64,000 bases of DNA from contig JASBSY010000023.1 in NCBI GenBank assembly GCA_030148705.1, positions 62,001 to 126,000 on the forward strand, written 5' to 3'. The notes beneath the pieces are model-generated. The model ran no database searches and was not told the DNA's origin. It worked only from the letters and a program-made list of their open reading frames with translations. This DNA comes from Pukyongia sp. (GTDB taxonomy: Bacteria; Bacteroidota; Bacteroidia; Flavobacteriales; Flavobacteriaceae). Below, piece after piece: positions 21,592 to 26,019 of the stretch (positions are counted from its first letter, which is position 1; every line of letters starts with the position of its first letter). The position numbers were made by a program, and so were the translations under genes.

Positions 21592-21695
21592 TGTGTTTTC
21601 GCGATTTTATTAAGAATAATGTAAATTACCATAAGTGGCAGTAATTGTCCATCTCACCGAGTTTTATTATTTTTGTCAAGCCTAAATTCCTGAAT

Positions 21696-24107
21696 ATGCA
21701 ATCGAACCCCGAAACAAAAAAAAACCTCTCTTTCGAAGACTTCAAATCGGAGGTGCTCAACGATTACAGAATCGCGGTTACAAGCAGGGAATGCAGTTTA
21801 CTGGGAAGGCGGGAAGTATTAACCGGAAAGGCAAAATTCGGGATTTTTGGCGACGGCAAGGAAGTGCCTCAGCTTGCGTGGGCAAAAGCATTTCAGAATG
21901 GGGACTGGCGCTCGGGTTATTATCGGGACCAAACCTTTATGATGGCTATTGGCAAGCTTACGATACAACAGTTTTTCGCGGGTTTATACGCTCATACCGA
22001 TATAGAAGCAGACCCGATGAGTGCGGGGAGACAGATGGGAGGGCACTTCGCTACTCACAGTCTCAATGAAGATGGTAGTTGGAAGAATCTTACCACCCAG
22101 AAGAACAGCAGTGCCGATATCTCTCCTACGGCGGGCCAAATGCCCAGGCTGCTGGGACTGGCACAGGCCTCGAAGATATTCAGGAATGTAAAAGGCATAG
22201 ACACAACTAATTTTTCGATCAACGGGAATGAGGTTGCCTGGGGCACTATAGGGAATGCCAGCACAAGTGAAGGCCTGTTCTGGGAAACGATAAATGCAGC
22301 CGGTGTGCTGCAGGTGCCTATGGTGATGAGTGTTTGGGATGACGAATACGGTATTTCGGTACACGCTAAACATCAAACCACAAAAGAGAATATTTCAGAA
22401 ATATTAAAAGGCTTCCAGCGAACTGAAGACGAAAAGGGCTACGAGATCATGCGCGTGTCGGGCTGGGATTACGGAGCCTTGATCGAGACCTATAAGAAAG
22501 CCGGCGAGATAGCCAGATCCGAGCATGTACCGGTGCTAATTCATGTCCAGGAACTCACTCAACCTCAGGGACATTCCACCAGTGGTTCGCACGAGCGATA
22601 CAAAAGCCAAGAGCGCCTTCAATGGGAACGGGAATACGATTGTAACCTTAAGATGCGCGAATGGATACTGGTGAATAATATAGCCACTGAAGAAGAACTT
22701 TCCGAAATGGAAGCTTCGATAAAGAAGCAGGTAAGGGATGGTAAGAAAGCGGCATGGCAGGCATTTCTTGCGCCACAGCAGAAAGAACAGCAGGAGGCCG
22801 GTACCCTTATATCTCAATTGGCGGAAAGTTCGCCCAATAAGAACTTCATCGAAAAACTGAATAACGACCTCCTGGCTGAAAAGGAGCCGTTGCGGAGGGA
22901 TATAATTGCCACTGCCCGAAAAGCACTTCGATATGTAGTGGCTGAAGCTACTGCCGAAAAAAGACAGTTACAGGATTGGATAGACAATTATTTTGAACTT
23001 ATTCAGCCCAAATACAGTAGTCATCTCTATTCGGAAGCGGAAAACAAAGCAACTTCAATTAAGGAAGTCAAACCACAATACGATACTGATTCTGAAGAGG
23101 TGGACGGACGTGTGGTACTCCGGGATAATTTCGACCAGATCTTCAGCAATTACCCCCAGGCAATGGTATTTGGAGAAGACAGTGGTACAATCGGGGATGT
23201 GAATCAGGGACTTGAAGGCTTACAGGAAAAACACGGGGAATTAAGAGTCGCCGATGCCGGAATTCGGGAAGCCACCATCCTGGGACAGGGAATTGGCCTT
23301 GCTATGCGGGGACTGCGTCCTATTGCAGAGATTCAATATCTGGATTATATACTGTATTGTTTGCAGATAATGAGTGACGACCTTGCGACCATCCGGTACC
23401 GTACCCTTGGCAAACAAAAAGCCCCGTTGATAGTGCGCACCCGAGGTCACCGACTGGAAGGTATATGGCATAGCGGCTCGCAGATGGGTGGATTGATACA
23501 CCTGCTGAGAGGAATGTATTTCCTTGTCCCGCGAAACATGACAAAGGCGGCAGGCTTTTATAATACACTTTTGGAAAGCGATGAACCCGCCGTTGTGGTA
23601 GAATGCCTGAACGGTTACAGGCTTAAAGAAAAGATGCCAAAAAACCTGGCGGATATTAGAACGCCCATTGGTCGCGTTGAAACCATTAAAGAAGGAAGCG
23701 ATATTACCCTTGTTTCTTACGGAAGTACCCTAAGAATCGTTGAAGAAGCTGCTAAAGAACTTCAGCAGGTTGGAATAGATGCCGAAATCATCGATGTACA
23801 ATCGCTGCTGCCACTCGACCTGGAGGAAGATATGGTAAAAAGCGTTCAAAAGACCAATCGATTGATGGTTATCGATGAAGATGTTCCGGGTGGAGCATCT
23901 GCCTATATCCTTCAGAGAATAATAGACGAACAAGGAGGTTACAAATATCTGGACAGTAAGCCCCAGACCCTTTGTGCCAAACCGCACCGACCGGCCTACG
24001 GAACAGATGGCGATTATTTTTCAAAGCCTTCAGCCGAAGATATATTTGAAAAGGTGTACGACCTAATGCACGAAGTTAATCCGGCTGATTTTCCGAAGCT
24101 GCGATAA
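21696..24107 (+). CDS. 2-oxo acid dehydrogenase E1 component, fused alpha and beta subunits
   Basis: 803 residues from ATG at 21696; the frame extends upstream but without conservation-like sequence. The first ~430 residues are the E1-alpha thiamine-diphosphate domain (GNASTSEGLFWE, then VWDDEYGIS). A Gln/Glu-rich linker follows, and from ~470 the E1-beta transketolase domain (FGEDSGTIGDVNQG, ending PAYGTDGDYFSKP). The usual role is decarboxylation of branched-chain 2-oxo acids (or pyruvate) with lipoylated E2. The single-chain fusion is a known Bacteroidota arrangement. The E2 gene is not in the window. Confidence 0.92.
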   Translation: MQSNPETKKNLSFEDFKSEVLNDYRIAVTSRECSLLGRREVLTGKAKFGIFGDGKEVPQLAWAKAFQNGDWRSGYYRDQTFMMAIGKLTIQQFFAGLYAHTDIEADPMSAGRQMGGHFATHSLNEDGSWKNLTTQKNSSADISPTAGQMPRLLGLAQASKIFRNVKGIDTTNFSINGNEVAWGTIGNASTSEGLFWETINAAGVLQVPMVMSVWDDEYGISVHAKHQTTKENISEILKGFQRTEDEKGYEIMRVSGWDYGALIETYKKAGEIARSEHVPVLIHVQELTQPQGHSTSGSHERYKSQERLQWEREYDCNLKMREWILVNNIATEEELSEMEASIKKQVRDGKKAAWQAFLAPQQKEQQEAGTLISQLAESSPNKNFIEKLNNDLLAEKEPLRRDIIATARKALRYVVAEATAEKRQLQDWIDNYFELIQPKYSSHLYSEAENKATSIKEVKPQYDTDSEEVDGRVVLRDNFDQIFSNYPQAMVFGEDSGTIGDVNQGLEGLQEKHGELRVADAGIREATILGQGIGLAMRGLRPIAEIQYLDYILYCLQIMSDDLATIRYRTLGKQKAPLIVRTRGHRLEGIWHSGSQMGGLIHLLRGMYFLVPRNMTKAAGFYNTLLESDEPAVVVECLNGYRLKEKMPKNLADIRTPIGRVETIKEGSDITLVSYGSTLRIVEEAAKELQQVGIDAEIIDVQSLLPLDLEEDMVKSVQKTNRLMVIDEDVPGGASAYILQRIIDEQGGYKYLDSKPQTLCAKPHRPAYGTDGDYFSKPSAEDIFEKVYDLMHEVNPADFPKLR

Positions 24108-24189
24108 TAATTTCAGAAAAATCCTTCAAAAAATTTCATTTATTCAGAAATAATCTGATATTTGACTAACAAACAAACAACTACAAGTT

Positions 24190-24228
24190 ATGCTATCCAG
24201 CATTTTAAATAATAATACCCTGCCGTAG
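24190..24228 (+). CDS. Candidate leader peptide of the asnB attenuator (M-L-S-S-I-L-N-N-N-T-L-P)
   Basis: A 12-codon reading frame ATG...TAG. Codons 7-9 are three consecutive AAT (Asn) codons at 24208-24216. The stop lies 23 bases before an intrinsic terminator, and the next gene is asparagine synthetase. This is the classic geometry of ribosome-mediated attenuation: abundant charged tRNA-Asn lets the ribosome finish and the terminator form, while shortage stalls it at the Asn codons. The placement before asnB makes chance unlikely. There is no strong ribosome-binding site, which is normal in this phylum. No expression evidence exists here. Confidence 0.7.
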   Translation: MLSSILNNNTLP

Positions 24229-24251
24229 CAAAAACTTGTCGCGATATACAG

Positions 24252-24282
24252 CCCGTCAGGTTTTAATCTGACGGGTTTTTTT
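24252..24282 (+). terminator. Intrinsic terminator/attenuator before asnB
   Basis: Arms CCCGTCAG (24252-24259) and CTGACGGG (24268-24275) pair perfectly around an 8-base loop and are followed by seven T (24276-24282). It could simply end E1 transcription, but the Asn-rich leader peptide just upstream and asnB just downstream suggest conditional termination. A competing pairing, CCTGCCG (24219-24225) with CGTCAGG (24254-24260), six of seven pairs, would block the left arm. Confidence 0.85.
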
Positions 24283-24300
24283 ATGACCAAACAAACTAAC

Positions 24301-24322
24301 AATTCAGCCGGATTGCTGAATT
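24301..24322 (+). promoter_or_regulatory. Perfect inverted repeat in the asnB untranslated leader
   Basis: AATTCAGC (24301-24308) and GCTGAATT (24315-24322) form an eight-base-pair stem with a six-base loop, between the terminator and the asnB ATG. It may be an extra RNA structure of the leader or an operator; the role is unknown. Confidence 0.4.
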
Positions 24323-24345
24323 CAACTAACTAAACCACCCATGAT

Positions 24346-26019
24346 ATGTGCGGAATCGTATGTGCCTTCGACCTAAAGCAGTCCTCAGAGAGCCTGCGAC
24401 CCCAACTCTTAACCATGGCAAAGTGCATCAGGCACCGAGGCCCTGACTGGAGTGGAATTTTCGATAATGAAAAGGCCATCCTGGCCCACGAAAGGCTGGC
24501 TATTGTGGATCCAACCTCCGGGAAACAACCCCTTTATTCAGAAGATAAAAAGATAATCCTGGCTGCCAACGGCGAAATATACAATCATCGGGAATTGAAA
24601 AGACAATTCGAAGGCAATTACAATTTTCAAACGCAGTCTGATTGCGAAGTTATCCTTGCACTTTACAGGAAGAAAGGCGCCGGCTTCCTCGACGATCTCA
24701 ACGGAATTTTTGGCTTTGCACTATACGATAGTGAACTGGACACCTATTTAATTGCTCGCGACCATATGGGCATAATCCCATTGTACATAGGGTGGGATCA
24801 AAATGGAACCTTTTACGTGGCTTCCGAACTTAAAGCCCTGGAAGGAGTTTGTACTAAAATTGAGCTCTTTCCTCCCGGTCATTATCTTCACAGTGCGGAC
24901 GGTGAATTGAAACGATGGTATAAGCGAGACTGGATGGAATACGAAAATGTAAAAGACAACACCTCCTCTATCGAAGAATTGCGAGCCGCCCTGGATGCTG
25001 CTGTGCACCGTCAGCTGATGAGTGATGTACCGTATGGTGTATTGTTGTCAGGAGGTCTCGATTCATCCATTACTTCCGCCCTGGCTAAAAAATATGCCGA
25101 CAAGCGGATAGAAACCGACGATACTGCTGCTGCATGGTGGCCCCGGCTTCATTCTTTTGCCACAGGTCTGGAAGGCTCACCCGATCTCAAAGCAGCAAGG
25201 TTAGTTGCCGAACACCTGGGTACTGTGCACCATGAAGTGAAATTTACAATCCAGGAAGGCATCGATGCAATACGAGATGTGATCTATCATCTGGAAACTT
25301 ACGATATTACCACCATACGTGCTTCCACACCCATGTACCTAATGGCTCGGGCCATCAAGGCTATGGGAATTAAGATGGTGCTGAGTGGCGAAGGAAGTGA
25401 TGAGATATTTGGAGGATACCTGTATTTTCACAAGGCGCCCAATGCTGAAGAATTTCACAAAGAAACTGTGCGTAAGCTCGACAAACTGCACCAGTACGAC
25501 TGCCTCAGGGCAAACAAATCCTTAGCCGCCTGGGGTATTGAAGGCCGTGTACCGTTTCTCGACAAGGAGTATATGGATGTGGCTATGCGACTGAACCCTG
25601 CCGATAAGATGATTGACAAGGACAGGATGGAAAAATGGATACTGCGCAAAGCCTTCGAGGATATGATCCCGGAGCAGGTGGCGTGGCGACAAAAGGAACA
25701 ATTCAGTGATGGGGTTGGCTACAGCTGGATAGACAGCTTAAAAGAACTCGTCAATGAAGAAGTTACGGATGAACAAATTAAAAATGCCAGGTATCGTTTT
25801 CCCATTCAAACTCCAACTACAAAAGAAGAATTCTATTACCGCAGTATCTTTGAAACGCATTTTCCAAGCGATACGGCTGCCCTGAGCGTGCCTTCGGTTC
25901 CCTCGGTAGCTTGCAGCAGTCCGGTTGCCCTGGAATGGGATGAAAGTTTTAAGAATATGAACGATCCATCCGGCCGGGCGGTGAAGACGGTACATTCGGA
26001 TGCGTATTCAGACAAATAA
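24346..26019 (+). CDS. asnB: Asparagine synthetase (glutamine-hydrolysing)
   Basis: 557 residues starting MCGIVCAFD, so Cys2 becomes the N-terminal nucleophile of the glutaminase domain (~2-190). The synthetase domain has the ATP-pyrophosphatase loop LLSGGLDSSITSALA near residue 228 and the GEGSDEIFGGY block near 348. It makes asparagine from aspartate, glutamine and ATP. The length matches E. coli AsnB-type enzymes. Its leader carries an Asn-codon leader peptide and a terminator, suggesting regulation by tRNA-Asn charging. The SRAP gene converges on it. Confidence 0.97.
   Translation: MCGIVCAFDLKQSSESLRPQLLTMAKCIRHRGPDWSGIFDNEKAILAHERLAIVDPTSGKQPLYSEDKKIILAANGEIYNHRELKRQFEGNYNFQTQSDCEVILALYRKKGAGFLDDLNGIFGFALYDSELDTYLIARDHMGIIPLYIGWDQNGTFYVASELKALEGVCTKIELFPPGHYLHSADGELKRWYKRDWMEYENVKDNTSSIEELRAALDAAVHRQLMSDVPYGVLLSGGLDSSITSALAKKYADKRIETDDTAAAWWPRLHSFATGLEGSPDLKAARLVAEHLGTVHHEVKFTIQEGIDAIRDVIYHLETYDITTIRASTPMYLMARAIKAMGIKMVLSGEGSDEIFGGYLYFHKAPNAEEFHKETVRKLDKLHQYDCLRANKSLAAWGIEGRVPFLDKEYMDVAMRLNPADKMIDKDRMEKWILRKAFEDMIPEQVAWRQKEQFSDGVGYSWIDSLKELVNEEVTDEQIKNARYRFPIQTPTTKEEFYYRSIFETHFPSDTAALSVPSVPSVACSSPVALEWDESFKNMNDPSGRAVKTVHSDAYSDK

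Follow-up and report, generated by a model that had tools for sequence, protein, structure and literature searches.

How is the asnB gene of Pukyongia sp. (Flavobacteriaceae) controlled, and does the short asparagine-rich reading frame that precedes it take part in this control? Leader-peptide (ribosome-mediated) attenuation is a textbook mechanism for amino-acid operons; to our knowledge, few leader-peptide attenuators have been worked out in Bacteroidota. The initial annotation of the DNA analyzed here, a stretch of 64,000 nucleotides of contig JASBSY010000023.1 (hereafter the window, to which all positions refer), had placed asnB under the control of charged tRNA-Asn by means of a leader peptide and a terminator. 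The regulated gene (24346–26019, plus strand) encodes a glutamine-hydrolysing asparagine synthetase of 557 amino acids, beginning with MCGIV. Its product matches the NCBIfam model for asparagine synthase B (NF006949) with 931.6 bits against a cut-off of 499, its best solved relative is E. coli AsnB (1ct9), and the nearest named AsnB relatives belong to the Flavobacteriaceae. The 2.89-Mb host genome also encodes AsnS (576.4 bits, cut-off 342.6), so that tRNA-Asn charging can depend on free asparagine.

Direct reading of the region upstream of asnB confirmed exactly the annotated 12-codon frame with three consecutive AAT codons. The leader ORF (24190–24228, plus strand) reads ATG CTA TCC AGC ATT TTA AAT AAT AAT ACC CTG CCG TAG and encodes the peptide MLSSILNNNTLP. 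The AAT codons (24208–24216, plus strand) are the proposed sensor, and the stop codon TAG (24226–24228, plus strand) lies three codons past the last of them. Upstream, the sequence GATATTTG (24157–24164, plus strand), found at a similar place in several members of the genus, fits at 7 of 8 positions the Bacteroidota −7 promoter box, TAnnTTTG; it is a possible −7 element, from which the transcript start would fall a few bases downstream.

Between the leader and the gene lies an intrinsic terminator (plus strand, 24250–24282). The hairpin had also been described accurately: 23 bases after the stop codon begins a perfect eight-pair, GC-rich stem, CCCGTCAG/CTGACGGG (24252–24259/24268–24275), followed by seven T (24276–24282). 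The terminator scan, which counts weaker outer and inner pairs, gives a 12-pair stem (24250–24277). The upstream region folds with a z-score of −4.72, and six terminator pairs show two-sided changes among relatives. A separate inverted repeat, AATTCAGC...GCTGAATT (24301–24322), is located between the terminator and asnB; it was scored by the scan as a weak minus-strand terminator-like site, and was not seen by eye in the genus relatives.

The choice between termination and read-through appears to lie with three strands flanking the leader. Strand 1, ACAAGTT (24183–24189, plus strand), sits immediately 5′ of the leader ATG and pairs with AACTTGT (24233–24239) within strand 2, AAAACTTGT (24231–24239, plus strand). 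This helix 1:2, which belongs to the minimum-energy fold, extends through the start codon by pairing TGCTAT (24191–24196, plus strand) with GTAGCA (24225–24230), and could thereby lock the leader's own start. By reading, TGTTAC/GTAGCA and similar pairs are found in relatives. Alternatively, AAAACTTG (24231–24238), just past the leader stop, pairs with strand 3, CAGGTTTT (24257–24264, plus strand), which lies within the terminator, in the inner part of its left arm and in its loop. This antiterminator helix 2:3 would exclude the terminator while leaving free the outer terminator stem CCCGT:ACGGG.

Both helices were compared with shuffled sequences in 54 unique related elements. Mean duplex energies were −11.1 kcal/mol for 1:2 and −10.6 for 2:3, against −4.8 and −4.4 for the shuffles. 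Helix 1:2 was better than at least 95% of its own shuffles in 45 of the 54 elements and helix 2:3 in 51, nine and three elements, respectively, falling short of this mark; with 53 elements and fewer shuffles the counts were 48 and 51. Swapping strand 1 between species had a small cost (mean −9.6 vs. −11.2 kcal/mol). In alignment A3 (35 sequences), 99.3% of the 279 cells of helix 2:3 are standard pairs, against 25 to 70% in slid versions. Covariation in 2:3 is limited: two-sided change is found in eight cells, all at one pair, where A-U becomes G-C in eight sequences. As most of strand 2 is invariant, column shuffles match both the number of 2:3 pairs with two-sided change (one) and that of pair types (six), 487 of 500 shuffles reaching values as high, and are exceeded only in the 2:3 cell counts. 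The protector helix 1:2 is weak in some relatives.

Taking into account that the initial annotation had suggested aligning related asnB upstream regions, we searched these with a detector whose only requirements are a short ORF containing an Asn cluster and a terminator downstream of it. Both were present before asnB in 25 of 115 family regions and in 22 of 80 named loci, and in one of 585 control regions obtained by first-order Markov resampling, which is not an exact dinucleotide shuffle. The 115 regions comprise seven from the genus and a family sample of 108, one of them taken from a 51% paralogue (L116); four near full-length AsnB genes (G088, G137, G041, G073) were left out. The two sets overlap, since seven of the 22 named-locus elements are letter-identical to elements of the other set, and some of the 80 named loci have little upstream DNA (L154, 7 bases). 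In all seven genus genomes the Asn-run leader is accompanied by a terminator and by a block around CCGTAGCAAAARCTTGTCGCGATATA (in L007, CCGTAACA...). Among the 22 named carriers are Aequorivita, Thermobacterium, Luteirhabdus, Planktosalinus, Gilvibacter, Cochleicola, Altibacter, Patiriisocius and a Marixanthomonas MAG.

An Asn-run ORF occupies the leader position in all 54 unique elements, the window's own included. In 53 of these leaders (the same set without L028), 255 Asn codons are AAT and 101 AAC, and 47 leaders mix the two, which indicates that the amino acid is kept and not a DNA repeat. The number of Asn codons ranges from 3 to 10 per leader; as the 53 elements were chosen for having at least three, these counts are not unbiased. 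The window leader, with three Asn among 12 codons, has the lowest count in the set, shared by three of the 53 elements in total.

The unbiased test is a covariance model (R1) built on the core alone, that is, the last codon, stop, strand 2, linker and terminator, without the Asn codons. Searched against 397 family genomes, it gave 39 matches of at least 55 bits, and all 39 lie directly before asnB and behind an in-frame Asn-run leader. Twenty of the genomes with these strong matches are outside the first sample, and 16 unique elements that this search was the first to reveal were absent from the training set. Ten matches of 40.6 to 48.5 bits (L238–L247) resemble, by reading, ordinary gene-end terminators with a similar stem, and one of 46.8 bits (G048) is a real element, L015. 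The window's own genome contains one strong match, of 77.6 bits, the next reaching 29.4 bits; when the core was sought before other genes of this genome, the next four matches resembled ordinary gene-end terminators by eye.

The distribution of the element follows the AsnB phylogeny. In a tree of 127 rows, which leaves out loci whose gene does not start with ATGTG[TC]GG, the 38 carriers form one clade that requires one change, and no row of the clade is without the element. The remaining 89 rows lack it. The expectation of the initial annotation that related asnB genes should share the Asn codons and the hairpin is thus borne out throughout the clade and fails outside it. In Flavobacterium, two named species on the tree (L189, L193) are without the element, and a MAG labelled Flavobacterium sp. 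(L141) has it. At the order level no element was found among 25 loci (L250–L274; start of L261 unreadable), and at the class level one candidate (L288) was found among 20 (L283–L302; start of L284 unreadable). The ORF, its Asn codons, the alternative helices and the link to asnB are established by sequence and comparison, as is a fixed spacing between the codons and strand 2.

This spacing is largely uniform. Counted from the first base of the last Asn codon, the strand 2 core is 19 nt away in 48 of 53 elements; the last Asn codon is three codons from the leader stop in 48, and the stop 4 nt from the strand 2 core in 49. L028, outside this set, also shows three codons and 4 nt. L120 and L237 likewise keep the 19 nt: the leader end has one codon fewer, and three additional bases in the gap make up for it. 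In the textbook footprint, a ribosome reaches some 15 bases past the first base of its P-site codon. A ribosome whose A site contains the last Asn codon would accordingly extend as far as the stop codon; one stalled on any of the three AAT codons would leave strand 2 free, and one on the stop codon would cover it.

We modeled folding of the nascent RNA with an assumed 5′ end at 24172 and a ribosome footprint from −13 to +15. With the ribosome on the first AAT codon, the probability of 2:3 is 0.93–0.97 at RNA ends 24264–24270; with the ribosome on the stop codon it is 0.00, and the terminator reaches 1.00 by 24276. On the third AAT codon, at the same ends, 2:3 has 0.23–0.63 and 1:2 has 0.33–0.73, the latter competing because outer strand 1 stays free. 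When no ribosome is present, 1:2 (0.95) and the terminator (1.00) form together at full length; at ends 24264–24270, 2:3 is still found at 0.16–0.54, so that in the model 1:2 does not cleanly exclude 2:3. At full length the terminator beats 2:3 in every ribosome state, from which it follows that the switch must operate kinetically. A comparable calculation for E. coli trpL gives a similar picture, with 2:3 present only until strand 4 is out.

Considering these data together, the element very probably controls asnB as a ribosome-mediated transcription attenuator responding to charged tRNA-Asn, and comparison with relatives strongly supports this main proposal of the initial annotation. The ribosome positions, stalling, read-through and response to asparagine that we infer are as follows. 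When Asn-tRNA is ample, the leading ribosome would pass the Asn codons and reach the leader stop, where its footprint would cover strand 2; strand 3 would then be free, the terminator would form and transcription would end before asnB. When Asn-tRNA is short, the ribosome would pause at the Asn codons, some 19 nt short of strand 2, leaving this strand free and covering strand 1 wholly or in part; 2:3 would consequently pair, the terminator would not be formed in time and asnB would be transcribed. If the leader is not translated, 1:2 would pair, shutting the leader start codon and occupying strand 2, and the terminator would form.

Four other explanations of the region deserve consideration. 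The hairpin might be a mere terminator of the upstream 2-oxoacid dehydrogenase E1 gene (21645–24107), the leader being a chance frame in AT-rich DNA. The hairpin starts 143 bases past the E1 stop, the E1 gene lies upstream of asnB in 20 of the 22 element-bearing named loci, so that the neighbourhood is largely conserved, and the weaker core-model matches elsewhere look like ordinary gene-end terminators. A chance frame would nevertheless leave unexplained that Asn runs survive AAT/AAC exchange at a fixed 19-nt spacing, that every strong core match is before asnB, and that such an arrangement is so rare in the resampled regions. Moreover, an extra ORF separates E1 from the element in several of the 22 loci, and the first ORF upstream in L147 has the opposite orientation, the element still accompanying asnB; it is thus linked to asnB and not to any single upstream gene. 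We consider this explanation extremely unlikely. Independently of this, one ORF of about 170 aa is often found between E1 and asnB in the carrier clade. Attenuation by a different antiterminator, in which CCTGCCG at the leader end pairs with CGTCAGG of the left terminator arm, as the initial annotation had drawn it, is hardly more credible than a chance frame. Six of seven pairs can indeed be drawn in the window, but 43 of 200 shuffles are as good there, the pairing beats 95% of shuffles in two of 54 elements, its mean energy in relatives is no better than that of shuffled sequences, and CCTGCCG would in large part be hidden beneath a ribosome located at the Asn codons. The RNA switch originally proposed hence retains its terminator and loses its antiterminator strand, the supported strand being AAAACTTG past the stop; with this replacement, the difficulty recognized at the outset, that a stalled ribosome might cover CCTGCCG, disappears.

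The two remaining explanations keep the RNA anatomy and change what acts on it. The leader might sense its own nascent chain or translation in general, by self-stalling of poly-Asn or by any slowed translation, instead of tRNA-Asn charging. The same anatomy would serve, and leaders have up to ten Asn; against this, a search blind to Asn codons found every strong match with an Asn run before an asparagine synthetase, leader residues other than Asn vary among relatives, and AsnS is present. We regard such a sensor as very improbable. A protein or a trans-acting RNA might instead bind the conserved linker between strand 2 and the terminator (24240–24250, plus strand; CGCGATATACA) and pick the helix, the leader being a modulator. 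Alignment A3 shows the linker types CGCGATAT, CGAGATAT and ACCCTATAC, and the CGCGATATA or ACCCTATAC types are conserved beyond pairing needs, no pairing explaining them. Conversely, there are two main linker types, the linker is changed in L141, L146, L104 and L235, and no such linker is seen in the second lineage described below; control by a factor at this site is therefore very improbable. Given that its distance behind helix 1:2 is presumably about that of hairpin-type pause sites, the linker is possibly, by analogy, an RNA polymerase pause site.

An attenuator reading tRNA-Asn is probably not confined to the window's clade. In the genus designated g11, all three genomes have Asn-run leaders before asnB, MIKNNNINSNNNSCHT, MSLNNNIRINNNFLQR and MSLNNNIRINNNSLQT, while their strand 2 and terminator are quite unlike the window type in sequence. 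By eye, the pairings AAGTAGA/TCTACTT (L281), GGGTAGA/TCTACCT (L282) and GAGTAGA/TCTGCTT (L280) can be drawn, and the number of shuffles as good is 2, 11 and 2 of 500 for L280, L281 and L282, respectively. Between L281 and L282, one A-U pair is replaced by G-C, with both sides changed. Against this, swapping does not always weaken the duplex: strand 2 of L281 finds a better partner in the strand 3 of either L280 or L282 than in that of L281 itself. From these sequences, g11 appears to have a second asparagine attenuator of the same logic and unrelated sequence. L288 (genome G660, from the same class and another family) has a leader-like ORF, MKTQTHNNNRFFALASR, before a terminator and asnB, with a potential pairing between GGCGAGCC, at the end of the leader, and GGCTTGCC in the terminator. 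It may be a further case; being a single sequence, it could also be due to chance.

We put forward, as a tentative proposal whose prospects we judge somewhat below even, a broader reading. Asparagine attenuators would have arisen at least twice in the Flavobacteriaceae on unrelated sequences, in the window's clade and in g11, L288 being perhaps a further case; the window type would moreover be a variant in which helix 1:2 locks the leader start codon and the conserved linker of 9–11 nt behind 1:2 is a hairpin-type RNA polymerase pause site timing the ribosome.

Many element-free asnB genes have AT-rich imperfect inverted repeats, such as TTATGTTTTTAAATTGAAACTTTAA, near a TATTTG box. They were noted by eye within the 150 bases immediately upstream of asnB in L012, L016, L019, L023, L025, L026, L035 and others of L037–L103, and look like a DNA operator, that is, a different control of asnB. 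No divergent AsnC/Lrp-type regulator gene was recognised by eye among the ORFs of nine loci, seven of them without the element. In six genomes of one genus (G133, G322, G452, G504, G514, G518), another asparagine-synthase-like gene, with 46 to 50% identity to the query, lies about 0.2 to 2.3 kb away from the first.

For Flavobacterium psychrophilum, a member of the same bacterial family as the window's host, strong indications of leader-peptide attenuation have been reported in front of operons for amino-acid biosynthesis, in a study whose main text does not contain the word asparagine (PMC9723704). Leader genes from many phyla, Bacteroidetes included, are the subject of PMC4833913. By title and abstract opening, we found no published description of an asparagine leader-peptide attenuator in open-licence literature without supplements, a coverage that leaves priority unsettled. 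If confirmed, the element would add asparagine and asnB to the leader-peptide attenuators. The 54 unique elements constitute natural variants that serve as a ready-made mutant series, the 19-nt rule lets the footprint of a stalled ribosome in Bacteroidota be gauged from natural sequences, and the separate g11 version suggests that attenuation control can evolve anew.

T-box riboswitches read tRNA directly, without a leader ORF. Those of Asn genes resemble the element in that uncharged tRNA would be sensed and a terminator or an antiterminator chosen, and differ from it in that here a leader ORF is present. A T-box, with its T-box sequence and specifier loop, was considered for the element and rejected: an Rfam scan gave no family at gathering score; at a lax threshold, three weak sRNA matches far below their gathering scores appeared, with no T-box among them. 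No T-boxes were reported in seven Bacteroidetes/Chlorobi genomes (PMC2494555). Close counterparts are the leader-peptide attenuators of amino-acid operons such as E. coli trpL, which likewise has a short ORF in which codons for the regulated amino acid follow one another, helices 1:2, 2:3 and 3:4 and a terminator before the biosynthetic gene, and which folds similarly side by side with the window's element. Unlike trpL, the amino acid here is asparagine and the gene asnB; strand 1 takes in the start codon of the leader and the bases preceding it, where it could lock the start, and strand 2 lies behind the leader stop.
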